Origin: Acidobacteriota bacterium | Lineage (GTDB): Bacteria; Acidobacteriota; Thermoanaerobaculia; Thermoanaerobaculales; Thermoanaerobaculaceae | Direction of reading: 5' to 3' | Assembly (NCBI GenBank): GCA_004298115.1 | Contig: SCRJ01000164.1 | Span: 1-56,133 of the forward strand | Length of the DNA stretch: 56,133 bases | Shown: in pieces, positions 1,664 to 26,010 of the stretch | Layout of the letters: each line of letters begins with the position of its first letter | Position numbering within the stretch: position 1 is the stretch's first letter | Position numbers and translations under genes: made by a program | Notes under the pieces: model-generated | Databases searched by the model: none | Seen by the model: only the letters and a program-made list of their open reading frames with translations | What the model was told of the DNA's origin: nothing

Positions 1664-1821
1664 CGGCACCTCCGACGGCCCCGTTCGTTCCACCTCACAC
1701 CTGAAACGGCCAAGTGACGACGTTTTCCAGGGAAACTGCGTCGCATCGCGCGGTATTCCGCGGACCTCACCCGTCGCGACACGCCCGTGTATGCTTGCCG
1801 GGCCGGCAGCCGCCGGCGCCT

Positions 1822-2703
1822 ATGCCGATCGGAGAGCTCGCCGCCCTCGCCACCGCCCTGTTCTGGGCGTTCACCGGCCTCTTCTTCGCCGAGGCCGCGC
1901 GCCGCCTCGGGGCGCTGCGCGTCAACCTGCTGCGCCTGCCGCTGGCGCTGGTCTTCCTCACGCTCACCATGCTCGCGGGGGGGCCCGATTTCGCCGCTCT
2001 CGACGGGCGGCGCACCGCCTACCTCGCCGCCAGCGGCGTCGTCGGCCTGGTGATCGGGGACCTGGCGCTGTTCGAGGCGCTGCGCCGTATCGGCGCCCGC
2101 CTGGCGCTGCTGGTGATGGCGCTGGCGCCGGTGTTCGCCGCGGCCGCCGGCCTCGCGTTCCTGCACGAGCGGCCCGGCCCGATGGCGCTGGCCGGGATCG
2201 CGGTCACCCTCGCCGGTGTGGCCTGGGTGGTGGGGGAGCGCAGGGCGGGTGCCGGTGCGGCGCGACACGACACGCGCGGCGTCGCGCTCGCGCTCCTCGG
2301 CGCTGCGTGCCAGGGCGTCGGCCTGGTCCTCGCCAAGGTCGGGATGGCGGGCGAGGTGCCGGCGCTCACCGGCACCTGGGTGCGGATGGGGGCCGCCACC
2401 GCGCTGATCTGGGCGCTCACGGCGGTGACCGGCCGGACCCGCGGCCTCCAGGTCGCCGCCGCGGTGCGCACGGCGTGGCCGTACGTGCTCGGCGGGGCGA
2501 TCTTCGGGCCGTTCCTCGGCGTCTGGATGTCGCTGGTCGCCGCCCGCCTCACCGACGTCGGGGTCGCGGCGACGCTGATGGCGACCACGCCGGTGCTCGT
2601 GATCCCGCTCCTGATGGTCATCGAGCGCTACCGCCCGACCGTCCGCGCGCTCACCGGCACCGCCGTCACGGTCGCCGGCGTCGCCCTCCTCTTCGCCAGC
2701 TGA
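1822..2703 (+). CDS. EamA/DMT-family transporter
   Basis: A 293-residue inner-membrane protein with about ten hydrophobic helices arranged as two EamA repeats (about residues 3-135 and 150-290), the usual size for drug/metabolite-transporter permeases. Typical features are LATALFWAFTGLFF at the N-terminus, the GVVGLVIGDLALFEALRRIG segment, and the mirrored second half ending TGTAVTVAGVALLF. The start at 1822 is chosen because the first helix follows at once; the longer reading frame from 1714 adds a non-membrane arginine-rich stretch. The substrate cannot be read from sequence. A heptanucleotide array begins within 20 bp after the stop codon. Confidence 0.88.
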   Translation: MPIGELAALATALFWAFTGLFFAEAARRLGALRVNLLRLPLALVFLTLTMLAGGPDFAALDGRRTAYLAASGVVGLVIGDLALFEALRRIGARLALLVMALAPVFAAAAGLAFLHERPGPMALAGIAVTLAGVAWVVGERRAGAGAARHDTRGVALALLGAACQGVGLVLAKVGMAGEVPALTGTWVRMGAATALIWALTAVTGRTRGLQVAAAVRTAWPYVLGGAIFGPFLGVWMSLVAARLTDVGVAATLMATTPVLVIPLLMVIERYRPTVRALTGTAVTVAGVALLFAS

Positions 2704-2713
2704 GAAGACCGTG

Positions 2714-2797
2714 GTCAGGGGTCCGTGGTCCGTGGTCCGTGGTCCGTGGTCGGTGGTCCGTGGTCCGTGGTCGGTGGTCCGTGGTCGGTGGTCCGAA
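2714..2797. repeat. Heptanucleotide tandem array (GTCCGTG)n, copy 1
   Basis: About eleven directly repeated 7-mers of consensus GTCCGTG, with variants GTCGGTG and GTCAGGG, begin 10 bp after the EamA stop codon. The seven-base period is not a multiple of three and no coding function is supported. It is followed directly by a GC-rich palindromic stretch and the conserved block at 2800-3090. The same arrangement is found at 22097-22145. Confidence 0.9.
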
Positions 2798-2799
2798 GC

Positions 2800-3090
2800 G
2801 GCCGCGCCGGCCGCAGGCCGCGCGGCCTTGAGCCCCTCCCTCGAAGACGAGACGCTCAACGATAGGCAGGGCCTCGCCACTTGGGGCGTGTAGCCGCGCC
2901 GCCGCCGGTGGTAGGGGCCGGTGATCACACTTTGCCGCCTACGGCCGGACCAGAGGGCACCCGTATCGCTATGCCGGCGAACCAGCACTGCCGAGCATTG
3001 AACAAAGTGTGATGCCCGGCCCCTTGCAAGGCGCACGAGGCGGGAGGAGCGGAACGTAGCCGGAGGCTACGTGAGCATCCGATCCGCCGA
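2800..3090. repeat. Composite dispersed repeat with long inverted arms, copy 1
   Basis: A gene-free block of about 290 bp that recurs at 23545-23835 in the same orientation. Its core is a 21-nt inverted repeat (2914-2934 and 3003-3023, 19 of 21 positions complementary) around a 68-nt loop. Outside this lies a perfect 8-bp stem with a GGA loop (ACGTAGCC 3054-3061, GGCTACGT 3065-3072). The matching copy has the same 68-nt loop length, and the arms are identical in the two copies. It could be a structured RNA or a small non-autonomous mobile element; sequence alone does not decide. It ends close to the xerC stop codon. Confidence 0.8.
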
Positions 3091-3139
3091 GTGCAACGCA
3101 GCCAGAGGCCCGGCGCCGGCGGCGCCATAAGCGAGGGTG

Positions 3140-4036
3140 TCACGCTTTCGGGTGCGCCTTGTTGTAGGTCTCCATCAGGTGGGCCAGGTCCAGGTGCGTG
3201 TACCGCTGCGTCGTCGAGAGCGACGCGTGCCCGAGCAGCTCCTGAATCGCGCGCAGGTCCATCCCGGCCTCGAGGAGGTGGGTGGCGAACGCGTGCCGCA
3301 GCGTGTGCGGGTGGATGTGACCGGCCATCGCGACGCGGAACACGGCCGCGTCGAGGATCCGGCGCAGCGAGCGGTCGGAGAGGCGGCCGCCGCGCTGGTT
3401 GACGAACAGCGGCTCGCCGCCTCCCGCAGGTGCGGCCCGCGAGCGCCACGCGGCGCGGTCCGGCAGGTAGGCGCGCAGGGCGCGCTCGGCCTCGCGCCCG
3501 AACGGGACGACGCGCTCCTTGCTTCCCTTGCCGAGGACGCGGGCCAGGCGCCGGTTGAGGTCGACGTCGTCGAGGTCGAGGCCGACCAGCTCGCTGGCGC
3601 GCACGCCGGCGGCGTACAGGAGCTCGAGCGCGGCCCGGTCGCGGCGCCCGACGGGGTCGGCCGGCAGCGCCTCGAGCAGCTCGGCGAGCTGCGGCGCGGT
3701 GACGATCTCGGGGAGCTTTTTCGGGGCGCGCGGCGTCGGCACCACCTTGGCCGGGTTGACGCCGACCACCCCGTCGCGGGCGAGGAAGCGGAAATAGGTC
3801 CGCAGCGCCGCGAGCGCGCGTTGCGCCGAGACCTTGGCGAGCTTCTTGCCGTGCAGGTGGGCGAGGTAGGCGCGCACGACGTTGGGGCTCACCGCGCGGG
3901 GGTCCGGGCACCCCATTTCGGCGGTGGCGAACGCTACGAACTGCGCCACCTCGCGCTCGTACGCTCGCAGCGTGTTGGGCGACAGGTTGCGCTCGTCGCG
4001 CACGTAGGCGGTGAACTCCTCGAGACGCCAGGCCAC
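3140..4036 (-). CDS. xerC: Tyrosine recombinase XerC
   Basis: A 298-residue site-specific recombinase of the size typical for XerC/XerD, which resolve chromosome dimers at dif. The N-terminal SAM-like core-binding domain covers about residues 1-90 and the catalytic domain 105-295. The active-site set is complete: R146 (GVRASEL), K170 (GKGSKER), H244 and R247 (HTLR), H270 (LGHASL) and the nucleophile Y279 (TTQRYTH). The start is a GTG. A TAGAAT hexamer lies only about 6 bp upstream, so the mRNA may be leaderless. The gene diverges from the asparagine synthetase-like gene. XerC and XerD cannot be separated with certainty here. Confidence 0.92.
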   Translation of the reverse strand: MAWRLEEFTAYVRDERNLSPNTLRAYEREVAQFVAFATAEMGCPDPRAVSPNVVRAYLAHLHGKKLAKVSAQRALAALRTYFRFLARDGVVGVNPAKVVPTPRAPKKLPEIVTAPQLAELLEALPADPVGRRDRAALELLYAAGVRASELVGLDLDDVDLNRRLARVLGKGSKERVVPFGREAERALRAYLPDRAAWRSRAAPAGGGEPLFVNQRGGRLSDRSLRRILDAAVFRVAMAGHIHPHTLRHAFATHLLEAGMDLRAIQELLGHASLSTTQRYTHLDLAHLMETYNKAHPKA

Positions 4037-19239: not shown

Positions 19240-22086
19240 ATGAGGCCTCGCGCCGCCGTCTGGGTCCTGGCGTTGCTGCTCGCCGCGCCGGCCATGACCC
19301 AGGACTACACCTACTTCGGCAAGAACAAGATCCACTACGACACCTTCATCTGGAAGGTCTACCCGACCCCGCACTTCCGCATCTCCTTCTACGACCGGGT
19401 CGAGCCCTCGCTGCCGAAGCTGGCCTCGTTCGCGGAGAGCGCCTACGACGAGCTGGCGCGGCGGCTCAACTTCCAGATCGCCGAGCCGATCCCGATCATC
19501 GCCTACGCGACCCACGCCGAGTTCGAGCAGACCAACGTCCTCGTCGAGTTCATCCCGGAAGGAGTCGGGGCGTTCGCGGTGCCGGCGCGCAACCGGATGG
19601 TGCTGCCGGTCGACCTCCCCGACGAGGCGCTGCAAAAGCTCATCCAGCACGAGCTGACGCACGTCTTCCAGTTCGAGATCCTGTTCCAGGGGAAGCTGGC
19701 CAAGGCGCTGGCCGCCAACCCGCCGCAGTGGTTCAGCGAGGGGATGGCCTCGTACCTGGCCAACGACGAGGACGCCCGGGCGCGCGCGTTGATGCGGGAC
19801 GCCGTCGCCTCCGACCGCGTCCCCTCCGTGACCAGCGACGTCCAGGGCTACTTTGCCTACCGCTTCGGGCACATGGTGTTCCAGTTCGTCGAGGCGGAGT
19901 GGGGCCCGGAGGGGCTGCGCGACTTCGTCTACGAATTCCGCAACACCCTGGGCAGCGGCGTCGGCAAGTCGATCAAACGCGCGTTCGACCTCGATGCCGA
20001 TGAGTTCGACGCCCGCTTCCGTGCCTGGCTGCGGAAGTATTACCAGGGCATCATCCTCGACCGCAGCGACCCGCGCGAGTTCGGGCCCGCGTTCCGGGTG
20101 GACGAGGAACGGCGGTCGTACGAGACGTCGCCCGTGGCGTCCCCGTCCGGAGACCTCATCGCGGCGTTCTCGACCTACAAGGAGAACGTCGACGTGGTGC
20201 TGCTCGGCGTGCCCAACCGCAAGCTCTTCCGCAGGTTGACGCCGGGCGACACGACGCGCTACACGTACCTCATCGCGCAGATGCTCACGGTCGGCCCGGA
20301 CCGCGGCGGCGACCTCGCGTTCTCGCCCGACGGCGACCGCGTCGCGGTGTTCGCCCGGCACGAACGCGGCCGCATGCTGCTGCTCCTCGACGCGGTCAAC
20401 GGCGGGATCGAGCGGATGATCCCGATGCCGGAGCTGGACCAGGCGATGGAGCCGGCGTTCTCCCCCGACGGTCGGACCGTCGCGTTCCACGCCTTCGCCG
20501 GCGGCCGCGCCGACATCTACCTGCTCGACCTCGAATCCGGAAAGACGACGAACCTCACCGACGACGACGCCTACGACTCGGCGCCGGTGTTCACCCCGGA
20601 CGGGACGAGCATCGTGTACAGCTCGGAGAGCGCCGAGAACGCCAAGCTCTTCGAGATCTCGATCGCCCGCCCGGCCGAGCGCCGCCAGCTCACGTTCGGC
20701 GCCGGCAACGACGAGGGCGCGTGCTTCTCGCGCGACGGCAAGCGGCTCTACTTCGCCTCCGACCGCGACCAGGGGGTGCTCGACATCTACGCCCTCGACC
20801 TCGCGAGCCGCGACCTCGCCCGGCTCACCAAGGTCATCGGCGCCGCGCTCAACCCGGCGGCGGTCCCGACGCCGGACGGCGAGCGCGTGGTCTACCAGGC
20901 GTACACCAAGGGCCGCTACATGCTGTACGAGACCGACCCGGCGCAAGGCAAACCGGCCGGGAAGGAAGCGCCGGAGCAGGCGGTGAAGGAGCGGCCGCCG
21001 TTCGTCCCGGCCGTCACCGTCGCCGTCAACAAGGACAAGATCGAGCCGGTCAAGCGGCACAAGCTGTTCGTCGACAACGGCCAGGTCCTCGTCGGGATCA
21101 GCGGCGACAACACGCTGATCTCGCAGACCTACATCTCGTTCGCCGACAACTACGGCGACCGGCGCTTCGACGTGCTCCTCGAGTCGGTGAGCGGCTTCTC
21201 CAACTTCCAGTTCTCCTACCTGAACCTGGCCAAGCGCCTGCAGTGGGGGGTGTCGATCTTCGACAACCGCAGCTACTACGTGTACGCCTCGCCGGTCGAA
21301 GACAACGTCCAGCGCCAGCGCATCTTCCGCCAGACCGGCGTGGCGCTGTTCGCGCAGTACCCGCTCTCGATCTATCACCGCGTCGAGGGGGCGGTCGGCT
21401 ACATCGACCAGGAAGCCGACTACCCGTTCCTCACCCCGGAGGGCCAGGTCGCGTTCGTGGGCCTGAGCAACAAGGTCCCGTTCGCCCAGGCCGCCTTCAC
21501 CGGCGACACCACGTTCTGGCAGAGCTACGGCCCGCACGGCGGGCACCGCTACCAGCTCAGCTACCAGTACGCGATGAACGGGAGCGGCGGCGGCGTGCTC
21601 TCCAAGGACATCAGCTTCGACGGCCGCCAGTATGTGCCGATCTCGCGCCGCAACGAGTTCGCCCTCCGCCTCTACGCCGTCTCCGCGTCCGGCCGCCAGC
21701 CGAACATCTACTACTTCGGCGGCCTCGACACCCTGCGCGGCTTCGACTTCCGCTCCCTCGCCGGCAACCGCGGCGGCTACCTCAACACCGAGTGGCGCTT
21801 CCCGCTCATCGACCACCTCGTGCTGCCGTGGCTGCACGTGGCCGGCGTGCGCGGCCGCTTCTTCCTCGACGTCGGCGGCGCCTGGTTCGACGTTCCCGGT
21901 TTCAAGCAGCCGTTCCGCTGCGTCAACGACGGGCGGCTGCAGGACTGCGTCTCCTCCTACGGCTTCGGGATGTCCCTCGACCTGTTCGGTCTGCCGGTGA
22001 ACTGGGACTTCTCGAAGCGCTGGGACTTCAAGCACACCTTCGACAAGGGCGCGCAGACGTCGTTCTGGGTCGGCTTCCAGTATTAG
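19240..22086 (+). CDS. Peptidase-MA-like, PD40 propeller and Omp85-like barrel fusion protein
   Basis: A 948-residue exported protein with three modules. Residues about 25-280 form a gluzincin-like domain with H137-E-L-T-H141 and the third ligand candidate E167 in FSEGMASYL. Residues about 290-570 hold PD40/TolB-type beta-propeller blades with repeated FSPDG, FTPDG and FSRDG motifs. Residues about 600-948 resemble the surface-antigen barrel of BamA/TamA, including YYFGGLDTLRGFDFRSLAGNRGGY and a final aromatic residue (VGFQY). No POTRA domains are seen. The protein is expected at the outer membrane with its peptidase and propeller in the periplasm. Whether it is an active peptidase is unknown. 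Confidence 0.88.
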   Translation: MRPRAAVWVLALLLAAPAMTQDYTYFGKNKIHYDTFIWKVYPTPHFRISFYDRVEPSLPKLASFAESAYDELARRLNFQIAEPIPIIAYATHAEFEQTNVLVEFIPEGVGAFAVPARNRMVLPVDLPDEALQKLIQHELTHVFQFEILFQGKLAKALAANPPQWFSEGMASYLANDEDARARALMRDAVASDRVPSVTSDVQGYFAYRFGHMVFQFVEAEWGPEGLRDFVYEFRNTLGSGVGKSIKRAFDLDADEFDARFRAWLRKYYQGIILDRSDPREFGPAFRVDEERRSYETSPVASPSGDLIAAFSTYKENVDVVLLGVPNRKLFRRLTPGDTTRYTYLIAQMLTVGPDRGGDLAFSPDGDRVAVFARHERGRMLLLLDAVNGGIERMIPMPELDQAMEPAFSPDGRTVAFHAFAGGRADIYLLDLESGKTTNLTDDDAYDSAPVFTPDGTSIVYSSESAENAKLFEISIARPAERRQLTFGAGNDEGACFSRDGKRLYFASDRDQGVLDIYALDLASRDLARLTKVIGAALNPAAVPTPDGERVVYQAYTKGRYMLYETDPAQGKPAGKEAPEQAVKERPPFVPAVTVAVNKDKIEPVKRHKLFVDNGQVLVGISGDNTLISQTYISFADNYGDRRFDVLLESVSGFSNFQFSYLNLAKRLQWGVSIFDNRSYYVYASPVEDNVQRQRIFRQTGVALFAQYPLSIYHRVEGAVGYIDQEADYPFLTPEGQVAFVGLSNKVPFAQAAFTGDTTFWQSYGPHGGHRYQLSYQYAMNGSGGGVLSKDISFDGRQYVPISRRNEFALRLYAVSASGRQPNIYYFGGLDTLRGFDFRSLAGNRGGYLNTEWRFPLIDHLVLPWLHVAGVRGRFFLDVGGAWFDVPGFKQPFRCVNDGRLQDCVSSYGFGMSLDLFGLPVNWDFSKRWDFKHTFDKGAQTSFWVGFQY

Positions 22087-22096
22087 CGAAGATGTG

Positions 22097-22145
22097 GTCC
22101 GTGGTCCGTGGTCCGTGGACCGTGGTCCGTGGACCGTGGTCCGAG
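22097..22145. repeat. Heptanucleotide tandem array, copy 2
   Basis: Seven 7-mers of consensus GTCCGTG with GACCGTG variants begin 10 bp after the stop codon of the barrel-protein gene. The array has the same unit and the same position relative to a stop codon as the array at 2714-2797, and the same GC-rich palindrome follows it, here interrupted by an IS element. Confidence 0.9.
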
Positions 22146-22161
22146 CCGGCTGCGCCGCGCA

Positions 22162-23545
22162 ATCAGGACATGGGTAAGGGTTTTGGTTCAGGACATAGGT
22201 AACACTCGTGGGGTGGTGTTGTCCAGGCCGCAGTCCTTTCTGGAGGTGTTGTGCTGGCGCGCATGCGCGCCAGCGGTGTCGGGTTGAATTCGGGGCGCGA
22301 CGGGTGTGGCGGCGTGGAAGGACTCGGTCCCCAAGTCGACGAGGCCGAGGCAGAGGCGGCCGAAGTGGACGGTATAGCTGGCTGGTCCCGCGGGTTTGAG
22401 GCCGACGTCCCACCCCGCCAGAGCCTGCGTGACCGGGAGAGAGAGCCCTTCGATCGTGATCTGTCCGCTCGTCCTCACCCGGCGCTGCAAATAGCCGTCC
22501 GGATACTGCACGCAGTCGGGGGTCCCGTGGTAGCGCCGGTCGGAGCGGACATACACCTCGGCTGGACACCGCATGCCAAGCGCCTCGTGCGGTCGCTCCC
22601 GGTTGAAGCTCTCCCGCCACACCTCCAGGGCCGCCACTTGGCTCTTGAGATCCCCCGTCTTGTGTCGCTCCACCTCATGTGCGATGTCCCGGTGCATCCG
22701 CTCGTGCCCACCGTTCTCCGATGGGCGCCCCGGTGTGATTCGGTCCAGGTCGATCCCCAGCACCACCCACCACGCCGACAGCCTGCTCAGCCCCAGCGGC
22801 GCCGAACGCGAGGCAAATGGCGAGCCATTGTCACTCCGGATCCTCGCCGGCAGCCCGTAACGCCGAAACAGCTTCTCGAACTCCGCCCGCACCGTCTGTG
22901 TGCGAGCATCCGCCGGCACCGCCGCGCACAGCACGTACCGGCTGTAATCGTCCCGCACCGTCAGCGGCGCGCACCGCTCCCCATCCGGCATGTACCAATA
23001 CCCCTTGAAGTCCACCGTCCACACATCGTTCGGACCCTCCGCCGCCCGCCGGTCCGTCAGCCTTCCCCCACGCTCACTCAACCGCCGCCGCCGCTTCTCC
23101 ACCAACCCAGCCCGATCCAACACCCGCTTGAACGAACTCTCCGACGGCACCTCCTCCCCACCGTGCTTCCTCGCGTACACCTCCCGGATCTTCCGCGGCC
23201 CCCACCCCATGTGCGCGTGCTTCAACCGCACGATCTCGCACACCACACCCTCGCCCACCTCCTCTGGACTCCGTCTCGGCCGCCGTGATCGATCCCCAAG
23301 CCCTCCAAACCCCTCCCGGTCGTACCTCTTCACCCACTTGTACCCCGTCTTCTCCGCAACCCCATACTCCCGGCATAACCCCGCGAACGACATCTCCCTC
23401 GCCATCGCCCTCACCACAAACTCGTGCCGCATATCCATGGCGTAACGCTCCTTCCAGGGCATGTCGGCCCTCCATCCTCAAAGGGCCAATTCTCCTCAAA
23501 CCCTTACCCATGTCCTGAACCTGATCCGTTACCCATGTCCTGAAC
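22162..23545 (-). mobile_element. IS481-like insertion sequence
   Basis: About 1.38 kb with one transposase gene between terminal inverted repeats. Each end carries two copies of a 16-mer close to TTCAGGACATGGGTAA: 22163-22177 and 22187-22202 at the left, and the complement at 23504-23519 and 23529-23544 at the right, with near-equal spacing. The exact ends and target duplication cannot be fixed by eye. The element splits copy 2 of the composite repeat: array to the left, palindromic block to the right. Confidence 0.88.
22188..23462 (-). CDS. IS481-family DDE transposase
   Basis: A 424-residue transposase. Residues about 1-130 hold helix-turn-helix DNA-binding regions (MSFAGLCREYGVAEKTGYKWVKRY). 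The integrase catalytic core follows with the DDE candidates in VWTVDFKGYW (first Asp), RSDNGSPF (second Asp) and GGHERMHRDI (Glu), then the FNRERPHEALGMRCPAEVY motif typical of IS481/IS3-type integrases. The frame is intact, so the element may be functional. The stop codon lies within the inner left terminal repeat. Confidence 0.95.
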   Translation of the reverse strand: MPWKERYAMDMRHEFVVRAMAREMSFAGLCREYGVAEKTGYKWVKRYDREGFGGLGDRSRRPRRSPEEVGEGVVCEIVRLKHAHMGWGPRKIREVYARKHGGEEVPSESSFKRVLDRAGLVEKRRRRLSERGGRLTDRRAAEGPNDVWTVDFKGYWYMPDGERCAPLTVRDDYSRYVLCAAVPADARTQTVRAEFEKLFRRYGLPARIRSDNGSPFASRSAPLGLSRLSAWWVVLGIDLDRITPGRPSENGGHERMHRDIAHEVERHKTGDLKSQVAALEVWRESFNRERPHEALGMRCPAEVYVRSDRRYHGTPDCVQYPDGYLQRRVRTSGQITIEGLSLPVTQALAGWDVGLKPAGPASYTVHFGRLCLGLVDLGTESFHAATPVAPRIQPDTAGAHARQHNTSRKDCGLDNTTPRVLPMS

Positions 23546-23835
23546 CTGTACCCGCCCGGCCGCAGGCCGCGCAGCCCCAAGCGCCCCCCTCGAAGACGAG
23601 AAACTCGACGCTAGGCAGGGCGTCCAAGCTTGGGGCGTGCAGCCGCGCCGCCGAGAGTGGTAGGGGCCGGTGATCACACTTTGCTGCCGGCGGCCTGACC
23701 TAAGGGTACCCATATCCCTCGGCCGACGGACCAGCGCTGCCGAGCACTAAACAAAGTGTGATGCCCGGCCCCTGGCAAGGCGGACGAGGCGGGAGGAGCG
23801 GAGCGTACCCGGAGGCTACATGAGGACGCGAGCGG
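23545..23835. repeat. Composite dispersed repeat with long inverted arms, copy 2
   Basis: The counterpart of 2800-3090 in the same orientation. Arms at 23663-23683 and 23752-23772 are identical to those of copy 1 and enclose a loop of exactly 68 nt that is only about 70 percent identical. The flanks are also shared (GAAGACGAGA, GGCAGGGC, CTTGGGGCGTG, GGCGGGAGGAGCGGA). The outer 8-bp stem seen in copy 1 is partly degraded here. Arms conserved more than the loop suggest selection on structure or recent spread. Confidence 0.8.
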
Positions 23836-23973
23836 GGCGAGGGTAACGCTAGGCGAGACGCGGCTTGGCCGCGGCTCGCGGGGGGCTCGGGGGGCAAGAG
23901 CGGCCGGGTGGGCGGTGGAGCGGCCGCGGGCCCCCCGACAGGATTGCGGTCCGCTATCGGCGGCGCCCCGGAG

Positions 23974-26010
23974 CTACTTGGCGCGGCGGGCGTCGAGGAC
24001 GATGCCCGCCCCCAGCAGCATGAACACCGCGAACCCCAGCCAGTTTCCCGCCCACCCCGTGTTGCCGAGCTGCGGGATGAGCGTGTGGTGGAAGCGCTCC
24101 TGCAGCGCGTCCACGGCGCCCTTGAACACCCCGGCGAGCGCGCCGCCGGCGATCAGGCCAGAGGCGACCAGCGTGCCGCGGTCGCCGCGCGCCTTCTCGA
24201 GCCCGGCATCGCCTGCCGCGGAGCGCTTGACGACCCACGCCACGATCGCGCCGACGAGCAGCGGCGTGTTCAGGTCCATCGGCAGGTACATGCCGAGCGC
24301 GAAGGCGAGCCCGGAGACGCCGACCAGCTCGACGACGATCGCGATCACCGCCCCGAGGCCGTACAGGAACCACGGCGCCTCGGCCGAGCCCATCATCGAG
24401 CGCGCCACCGCCGCCATCGCGTTCGCCTGCGGCGCCGGCAGCGGCCGCGGGTGCGCGGCCGAGAGGACGTACCCGTCCGTGTAGGCGAACAGGAGCATCA
24501 CGGCCGTCACCGTGATCGAGGCGAGCGCCGCACCGCCGATCAGCGACCACTGGATCTTCCGCGGCGTACCGCCCACCCAGTAGCCGACCTTCATCAGCGT
24601 CACCATCGAACCGGTCATCGACAGGGCGGAGCAGACGACGCCGCCGATCAGCAGCGTGGCCAGCATCCCCTGGCCGCCCGACAGGCCGAGGCGCGCCAGG
24701 ACCACGGCGGCCACGATCAGCGTCGTCAGCGTCATCCCGGAGACCGGCGTGATCGAGATCATCGCCACCGCCCACGCCGACACCGCCGCGAACAGGAACG
24801 AGATCAGCAGCGTGAGCGCGAGCGCGACGAGCGTCTTGACCGTGGCGCCCGGCACCCCGGCGAGCACGACGAAGCGGAAGTAGATCCCGATCGCGACCGC
24901 GGTCACGGCGCCGAGCACCGCGACGGTCGTCATCGGCACGTCCTGGTCCGTGCGCGGCAGCGACGCGGCAGCGCCGCCGGTCTTCAGTCGCGTCAACTCC
25001 TTGAGCACCGTGCGCAGCGCCTGCACGATCACCGGGCTCATCTTGGCGATCGAGATCAGCCCGGCGGCGAAGATGCCGCCGATCCCGATCAGGCGCACGT
25101 AGTTGCCGAACACCGCCTCGGCGTCGAGCCCGGCGACCGGCGGCATTCCGGGAAACAGCCCCCCCGGTACCTGCGCGCCGATGCGGGCGACCAGCGGCAC
25201 CAGCACCCAGTACGAAAGGAACGACCCGGCGCAGATGATCGCGGCGTAGCGGACGCCGATGATGTACCCCAGGCCCATCACGGCGGCCGAGGTGTTGAGC
25301 GTAAAGATCGCCTTGAGCTTGTTGGTCGCGGCGTCGAACGCCGGCACCAGCGCGGTCGAGAACGTGTCACGCCAGGCCTCGAACCCCGCCGCCAGGTAGT
25401 CGAGCACGAAGCCGATCCCCATCGACCCGAGCAGCACCCCGGCGGCCTTGCCGCCCTTCTCGCCGGTGACGAGGATCTCCGTCGTGGCCGTCGCCTCGGG
25501 GAACGGCAGCTTGCCGTGCATCTCGGCCACGAAGTAGCGCCGGAACGGGATCAGGAAGACCACGCCGAGCACGGCGCCGAGGAACGGCACGAGGAAGATC
25601 TGCATGAACCCCGAGCGCCCCTCGAGGCCGAGCACGAAGATCGCGGGCATCACGAACACCGAGCCCCCGACCACGATCCCGGCGGTGGCCCCGAGCGTCG
25701 CCACCTGGAGGTTCTCGAGGATCGTCGAGGTGCGCCGCCCGGCCGCGCCCAGCATGGCGGAGTAGCCGACCGCGAGGATCGCGATCGGGATCGCCGTCTC
25801 GACCCCCTGGCCGAGCTTGAGCGCGATGTACGCCGCCGCCGCGGAGAACAGCACGGTCATGGCGAGGCCGAGCGCGACCGAGCGCGCCGTCACCTCGGGG
25901 ACGCTGCGCTCCGCCGCGATCAGCGGCTCGTACGTCTCGCCGGGCTTCAGGGGGCGATAGGCGTTTTCGGGGAGACCGGGGATGAGCTGCGGCGCCTCGG
26001 GGGTGTCCAT
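23974..26010 (-). CDS. OPT-family oligopeptide transporter
   Basis: A 678-residue inner-membrane protein with about 14-16 hydrophobic helices. Family features include PEVTARSVALGLAMTVLFS and YIALKLGQGVETAIPIAILA at the N-terminus, the TEILVTGEKGGKAAGVLLGSMGIG segment, PVSGMTLTTLI, and LGMYLPMDLNTPLLVGAIVAW near the C-terminus. Bacterial OPT members import oligopeptides or metal-chelate complexes; the substrate is unknown. It lies about 50 bp after a small secreted-protein gene and is probably in the serS transcript. Confidence 0.93.
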   Translation of the reverse strand: MDTPEAPQLIPGLPENAYRPLKPGETYEPLIAAERSVPEVTARSVALGLAMTVLFSAAAAYIALKLGQGVETAIPIAILAVGYSAMLGAAGRRTSTILENLQVATLGATAGIVVGGSVFVMPAIFVLGLEGRSGFMQIFLVPFLGAVLGVVFLIPFRRYFVAEMHGKLPFPEATATTEILVTGEKGGKAAGVLLGSMGIGFVLDYLAAGFEAWRDTFSTALVPAFDAATNKLKAIFTLNTSAAVMGLGYIIGVRYAAIICAGSFLSYWVLVPLVARIGAQVPGGLFPGMPPVAGLDAEAVFGNYVRLIGIGGIFAAGLISIAKMSPVIVQALRTVLKELTRLKTGGAAASLPRTDQDVPMTTVAVLGAVTAVAIGIYFRFVVLAGVPGATVKTLVALALTLLISFLFAAVSAWAVAMISITPVSGMTLTTLIVAAVVLARLGLSGGQGMLATLLIGGVVCSALSMTGSMVTLMKVGYWVGGTPRKIQWSLIGGAALASITVTAVMLLFAYTDGYVLSAAHPRPLPAPQANAMAAVARSMMGSAEAPWFLYGLGAVIAIVVELVGVSGLAFALGMYLPMDLNTPLLVGAIVAWVVKRSAAGDAGLEKARGDRGTLVASGLIAGGALAGVFKGAVDALQERFHHTLIPQLGNTGWAGNWLGFAVFMLLGAGIVLDARRAK

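Follow-up and report, generated by a model that had tools for sequence, protein, structure and literature searches.

ERIC and YPAL-type repeats are full-length palindromes of about 130-170 bp that occupy intergenic regions of bacterial genomes. The repeat described here, a long full-length intergenic palindrome, can be likened to them by general description only. In REP/BIME and RAYT transposase biology, REPs are 20-40-bp stem-loops whose GTAG or CGTC tag lies outside the stem and which are associated with RAYT genes (PMC2817692, PMC3733652). Tyrosine transposases flanked by terminal inverted repeats (TIRs) have been reported in Acidobacteria (PMC3733652), a description that fits the pair of Y1 transposase genes in the genome studied here. 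Among the multicopy sequences of Geobacter metallireducens and G. bemidjiensis are intergenic families built on heptanucleotide repeats (consensus GGACCGG) and, apart from these, a family with the central palindrome GRCGTAGCGCTGCTACGCC; one intergenic region can hold several families (PMC2700814, PMC2996986).

The repeat shares with BIMEs and REPs a mosaic, palindromic and intergenic character, a frequent position 3' of genes, alternative complementary stem types and the lack of an own gene. Unlike the 20-40-bp REPs, its palindrome is at least 96 nt long with nested shells; unlike GTAG-type REPs, it holds the GTAG of its inner hairpin inside the stem; and unlike RAYT-linked REPs, it does not flank the genome's two Y1 transposase genes. 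Compared by description only, the Geobacter families likewise include heptanucleotide and, separately, palindromic elements between genes, but they belong to another phylum, and the available parts of those papers describe neither exchange of shells nor a relation to transposons. The full-length palindromic kind of bacterial MITE has a counterpart in one distant family, where relatives of the core form 176-bp palindromes that have inverted ends and 4-bp YTAR duplications; in the window copies, by contrast, no duplication is readable, extra modules are present and variation goes shell by shell. We conclude, with a probability of about 0.78, that the repeat is a non-autonomous, interspersed mosaic DNA repeat of the BIME/MITE kind in a genus of Acidobacteriota, spreading as DNA and evolving by exchange from copy to copy.

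The window, the whole 56,133-nt stretch that was analysed, is contig C28 of a 3.97-Mb draft assembly (G000). Its sequence holds two copies of one composite block, each a copy of a mobile-type DNA repeat built around a nested palindrome and not a new gene (Table 1). In both, the order is heptads, GC palindrome, conserved flank E, insert F (21-nt arms and a 68-nt loop), core palindrome G and tail, as the initial annotation had proposed; its intervals stop short, since the element reaches about 3126 in copy 1 and about 23967 in copy 2. Copy 1 is flanked on the left by an EamA-family transporter gene and on the right by a tyrosine recombinase gene, a neighbour that brought integron attC sites (core sites RYYYAAC / GTTRRRY) into consideration and whose best match is XerC. 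The heptads of copy 1 begin a few bases 3' of the EamA-family stop codon, the last part of its flank forms the outermost shell's left strand (GCGCCGCC-GCCGGT), and about 13 nt separate its tail from the stop codon of the convergent XerC-type gene. The neighbours of copy 2 are a PD40- and Omp85-domain gene and an OPT transporter gene; the heptads of this copy again begin a few bases 3' of a stop codon, here that of the PD40/Omp85-domain gene, and its tail end adjoins the stop codon of the convergent OPT gene. An IS481-family insertion sequence, foreign to the repeat, sits within its GC palindrome. The GC-rich palindromic extra insert in its tail (23850-23947, GGCGAGACGCGGCTTGGCCGCGGCTCGC..) is common to many other copies in the genus.

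Table 1. Positions of the two repeat copies and their neighbouring genes in the window.
Feature	Position	Strand	Remarks
EamA-family transporter gene	1714-2703	+	left of copy 1
Copy 1 heptad array	2709-2795	.	unit CCGTGGT, 12.4 copies
Copy 1 GC palindrome	2798-2827	.	GGCCGCGC/GCGCGGCC type
Copy 1 conserved flank	2836-2911	+	contains CTCCCTCGAAGACGAG, GGCAGGGC..
Copy 1 insert F	2912-3025	+	arms 2914-2934 and 3003-3023; loop 2935-3002 (68 nt)
Copy 1 second hairpin (core G and tail)	3026-3126
Copy 1 core palindrome G	3026-3099	+	inner hairpin CGTAGCC-GGA-GGCTACG
Copy 1 tail	3100-3126	+	right strand of the outer shells, AGCCAGAGGCCCGGCGCCGGCGGCGCC
XerC-type tyrosine recombinase gene	3140-4036	-	right of copy 1, convergent
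Gene with PD40 and Omp85 domains	19240-22086	+	left of copy 2
Copy 2 heptad array	22094-22143	.	7.1 copies
Copy 2 GC palindrome, left part	22144-22160	.	interrupted by insertion sequence
IS481-family insertion sequence	22163-23543	-	ends TCAGGACATGGGTAA../..TTACCCATGTCCTGA; transposase gene 22188-23462(-)
Copy 2 GC palindrome (right part), conserved flank and left outer shell	23557-23660	+	left outer shell GCGCCGCC-GAGAGT
Copy 2 insert F	23661-23774	+	arms 23663-23683 and 23752-23772; 68-nt loop
Copy 2 core palindrome G	23775-23849	+	chimera: left and right arms from different allele pairs
Copy 2 tail	23850-23967	+	GC-rich extra insert, then conserved tail end GGTCCGCTATCGGCGGCGCC
OPT transporter gene	23974-26010	-	right of copy 2, convergent

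The arms of insert F are identical in the two copies and complementary at 19 of 21 positions, just as annotated. The loops are indeed 68 nt each, with 16 of the 68 sites different, a divergence of 24% where about 30% had been given. Folding energies compared with those of shuffled sequences give z = -3.9 for the whole block, -3.0 for the arm-loop part and -7.1 for the single 96-nt hairpin of short-form copies without F, so the structure of the block is not a product of chance.

Searches with the block find parts of it at about 45 places in the genome, 17 of which carry insert F, and the two window copies thus belong to the composite repeat family that had been proposed, not to an isolated pair. 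Parts of the block also occur in all eight other genomes of the genus, while 30 more distant genomes yield a single weak match, from the same family. All genomes are draft assemblies with frequent contig breaks at these repeats. In G000, contigs C41, C92, C136, C140, C148 and C201 start or stop within heptad arrays or elements, and the copy number is therefore probably underestimated. A plasmid collection returned short, chance-like matches only, and a literature search by sequence returned none. In some copies (L064, L066, L071, L073, L076) the flank is replaced by other modules, GCGCGCCCGGCGGTCGCGCCCCACATTAG and TTCCCGCGCAAGCGGGAA..CCCCGCGTTCGCGGGGATGACA.

The second hairpin of the block, core G, is a nested palindrome of 96 nt and the older part of the repeat. 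Among 13 copies of the window genome, 96.9% of pair cells are standard pairs and 14 of 32 pairs have changed on both sides, so covariation is present; none of 500 shuffles pairs as well, slid controls come nowhere near, and one-sided intermediates are few. A covariance-model search of the genome and its relatives, a check the initial annotation had suggested, recovers end-to-end matches to core G in 23 of 396 Acidobacteriota genomes. When 52 distinct sequences from the phylum are aligned with the genus copies, two-sided changes extend to 29 of the 32 pairs. Unpaired positions are kept across lineages as well (C[AT]AGG on the left, AACG on the right and a GGAG/TGAGGA internal loop), and the GGA loop is conserved within the genus. 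The block is not a known annotated repeat in Rfam, where the window has no match at the gathering score and nine relatives, searched permissively up to E = 5, return nothing relevant.

Variation of core G is organised by shell. Across 80 genus copies, every shell draws on a small menu of complementary left/right allele pairs: GAGAGT/GCTATC (26 copies), GCCGTT/GACGCC (18) and GCCGGT/GGCGCC in the outermost shell; AGAT/GCAGAT, AGCC/GCGGAT, TATC/GCGAGA, GGAT/GCAGAC and TATG/GCCAGA in the next; and CGTAGCC/GGCTACG, TGTGGCC/GGCCACA, TGTAGCC/GGCTACA, CGTACCC/GGGTACG and CATAGCC/GGCTATG in the innermost. Left and right alleles of one shell are tightly coupled, with a normalised mutual information (NMI) of 0.91, 1.0 and 0.78 against about 0.2 after permutation, and long arm strings give 0.78 against 0.54. 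Different shells are nearly independent. For most combinations the between-shell NMI stays near its permuted value (0.28/0.21, 0.25/0.22, 0.30/0.23), and the arm compared with the innermost shell lies somewhat above it (0.55/0.40 and 0.70/0.46). The mean duplex energy of the arms is -22.0 kcal/mol, compared with -14.3 (sd 0.4) for arms dealt out anew. Several copies, including window copy 2, are chimeric, with two arms from different pairs.

Orthologous places in other species, identified by their flanking genes, show this exchange at fixed sites. At the locus of copy 1, the element is present in G000, G003, G005 and G007 with long arms that differ on both sides, and F is present in G000 only and absent from the three sister species. 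Of 25 ortholog comparisons, some of which share a locus, 23 show long arms that are different on both sides. One comparison has identical long arms (C147_25000 and G003:C81a). In the remaining one (C39_18483 and G003:C174) only the left long arm differs, and the outermost shell has changed on both sides; here one side has already switched but the other has not. The upstream spacers of six ortholog pairs have a likeness of 0.89-0.99, exceeding that of 95% of unrelated copies (0.86); the insertion at these places is therefore ancestral, and the palindrome was replaced in place. Averaged over all ortholog pairs, the likeness only slightly exceeds that of unrelated copies (0.79 vs 0.74), so re-insertion is possible at loci beyond those six pairs.

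Gene neighbours have changed at both window loci. The EamA/integrase gene pair is empty, with a short intergenic region, in G001, G004, G006, G008 and G012 and filled with the element in G000, G003, G005 and G007; in G002, the element on the integrase side is joined to the gene that lies left of another element (C29) in G000. At the second locus, the neighbour of the OPT gene in G003 and G007 differs from that in G000, G001 and G008, and the element sits at the junction. The copies are short, have no gene called inside, recur at about 45 places and possess terminal inverted repeats, as the outer shells GCGCCGCC..GGCGGCGC pair across the element. In the distant family f39, and also in one further genome, the core lies inside palindromes of 175-177 bp with CCCGGATTATTCATGAAG ends, flanked on both sides by CTAG, TTAA or CTAA. 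These 4-bp YTAR duplications complete the pattern of a MITE. Elements of this type (L266-L292, 176 bp, with the same ends and duplications) were seen in G149, G291, G307, G158, G121 and G263, where they have many copies per genome and many contigs terminate inside them. High copy number, absence of genes, the filled and empty gene pair and relatives with inverted ends and target duplications all agree with the non-autonomous mobile element suggested at the outset. No duplication is readable at copies of the window genus, because the intergenic DNA has diverged too far.

A partner enzyme was sought in both groups. In G307, an IS1380-family transposase gene (L298, 937-2640 of contig C242) has ATTATTCACGAA inverted ends and YTAR-like flanks. 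These ends are partly similar to those of the 176-bp elements, and the gene, the only such candidate found, is a candidate autonomous partner or driver in f39, not in the window genus. The IS1380-family model has no match in G000 and none above the cut-off in the genus, where no transposase with matching ends was found; loci with a single TIR in G149, G158 and G307 contain no transposase. A RAYT/REP link was rejected, as the surroundings of the two Y1 (PF01797) transposase genes of the window genome give no significant match to the repeat. Both are single genes in G000 (L110 on C93, L111 on C105) and are flanked by GGTACC-type palindromes. Given the lack of a matching transposase and of a readable duplication, transposition within the genus is argued from copy number and one filled/empty locus.

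Insert F behaves like a second palindromic module. In 31 distinct genus copies its loop measures 68 nt in 30 and 67 nt in one, and it always sits at a constant point on the left strand of the core, where it substitutes for 8 nt (GCCAGATG) at the core base with the same junctions. F may be a separate MITE-like element that inserted itself at this one point independently at many loci, a possibility to which we give somewhat less than even odds. It would explain why F is present or absent at orthologous cores, why one copy (L193, G007:C130, about 1320-1431) is inverted as a unit together with its asymmetric arm mismatch, and why the arms are mostly invariant, with two-sided changes in three of 21 pairs. 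Within the genus the arm pattern was not found outside the core, and elsewhere in 37 genomes of the order it has a single match with one mismatch (G029). Against independent insertion stand the replacement of the same 8 nt with the same junctions in all copies, and the fact that the remaining core usually differs too at the compared loci, so that F may ride on conversion tracts from a single original insertion. Neither an enzyme nor a duplication was found for it, and none of the 37 genomes of the order holds a donor insertion sequence bearing its arms.

The elements are biased to the 3' ends of convergent genes. With gene orientation taken from a simple codon-usage ORF caller, the right-hand gene is convergent at 28 of 35 places (p = 0.0005), convergent pairs make up 12 of the 23 fully assigned places (0.25 expected, p = 0.005), and most stop codons fall within 30 nt of the element. 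This location, together with strong compensatory pairing and unpaired positions conserved across families (AAGG/AACG, GGAG/TGAGGA and the GGA loop), is what one might expect of a structured RNA, the other suggestion of the initial annotation: a 3'-UTR element or a bidirectional terminator or stabiliser between convergent genes, selected in the transcript, with repetition as a secondary trait. We regard this as unlikely. Selection on a transcript of a given strand should make G-T cells outnumber A-C cells, but the ratio is 23:40 in the genus and 22:11 in distant families, and the G-T excess hinted at by an initial wobble count was not confirmed in the genus. The absence of a consistent strand preference weakens the RNA reading. 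The hairpins also lack a following U-run, with no T-run of an intrinsic terminator at either core end in the listed copies, the arms change block-wise, in closely related species the element is missing from this gene pair, and Rfam offers no match. Pairing, we infer, is maintained in the DNA palindrome itself or through the process of copying. The interpretation of the initial annotation as a whole is partly supported, in its composite-family and mobile-element parts.

How matched arms come to change together allows a further alternative, in which an imperfect palindrome is corrected by template switching during replication rather than exchanged between copies and then selected. The scarcity of one-sided intermediates in the core would suit such a correction, and the mismatched chimeras could serve as its input. 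It would, however, erase the conserved mismatches and bulges that persist in all lineages, and the same allele pairs occur at many loci, which points to copying from other copies; sharing between loci beyond the yield of local correction would refute template switching and is already partly seen. We consider template switching improbable as the main cause. In the mosaic-repeat reading that we prefer, the repeat consists of an old nested palindromic core, G with its outer shells, whose relatives in other families of the phylum are separate palindromic elements, of lineage-specific 5' modules (heptads, GC palindrome and flank) and, in some species, of the second palindromic insert F at a constant point. 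Copies may first have spread by transposition with an enzyme acting in trans. Later, recombination or gene conversion between copies could have proceeded through the constant linkers between shells, with selection or templated correction retaining the products that still pair, and with mismatched chimeras as transient leftovers. No host function need be assumed. We also speculate, as a long shot, that the element is the substrate of a dedicated or at least structure-guided exchange that swaps matched layers of its nested hairpin from one genomic copy to another (a combinatorial palindrome), in which the constant linkers would act as crossover points and the elements as rearrangement joints linking gene ends.

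The core G family is present in several families of one phylum and absent from Rfam. It offers a clear natural case of a long palindrome whose paired strands change in concert at fixed, orthologous sites, and it makes testable what keeps bacterial palindromic repeats paired, be it RNA selection, DNA structure or a copying mechanism. It also carries a warning that strong covariation alone need not imply a functional RNA; here it accompanies copy-to-copy exchange in a mobile-type repeat.
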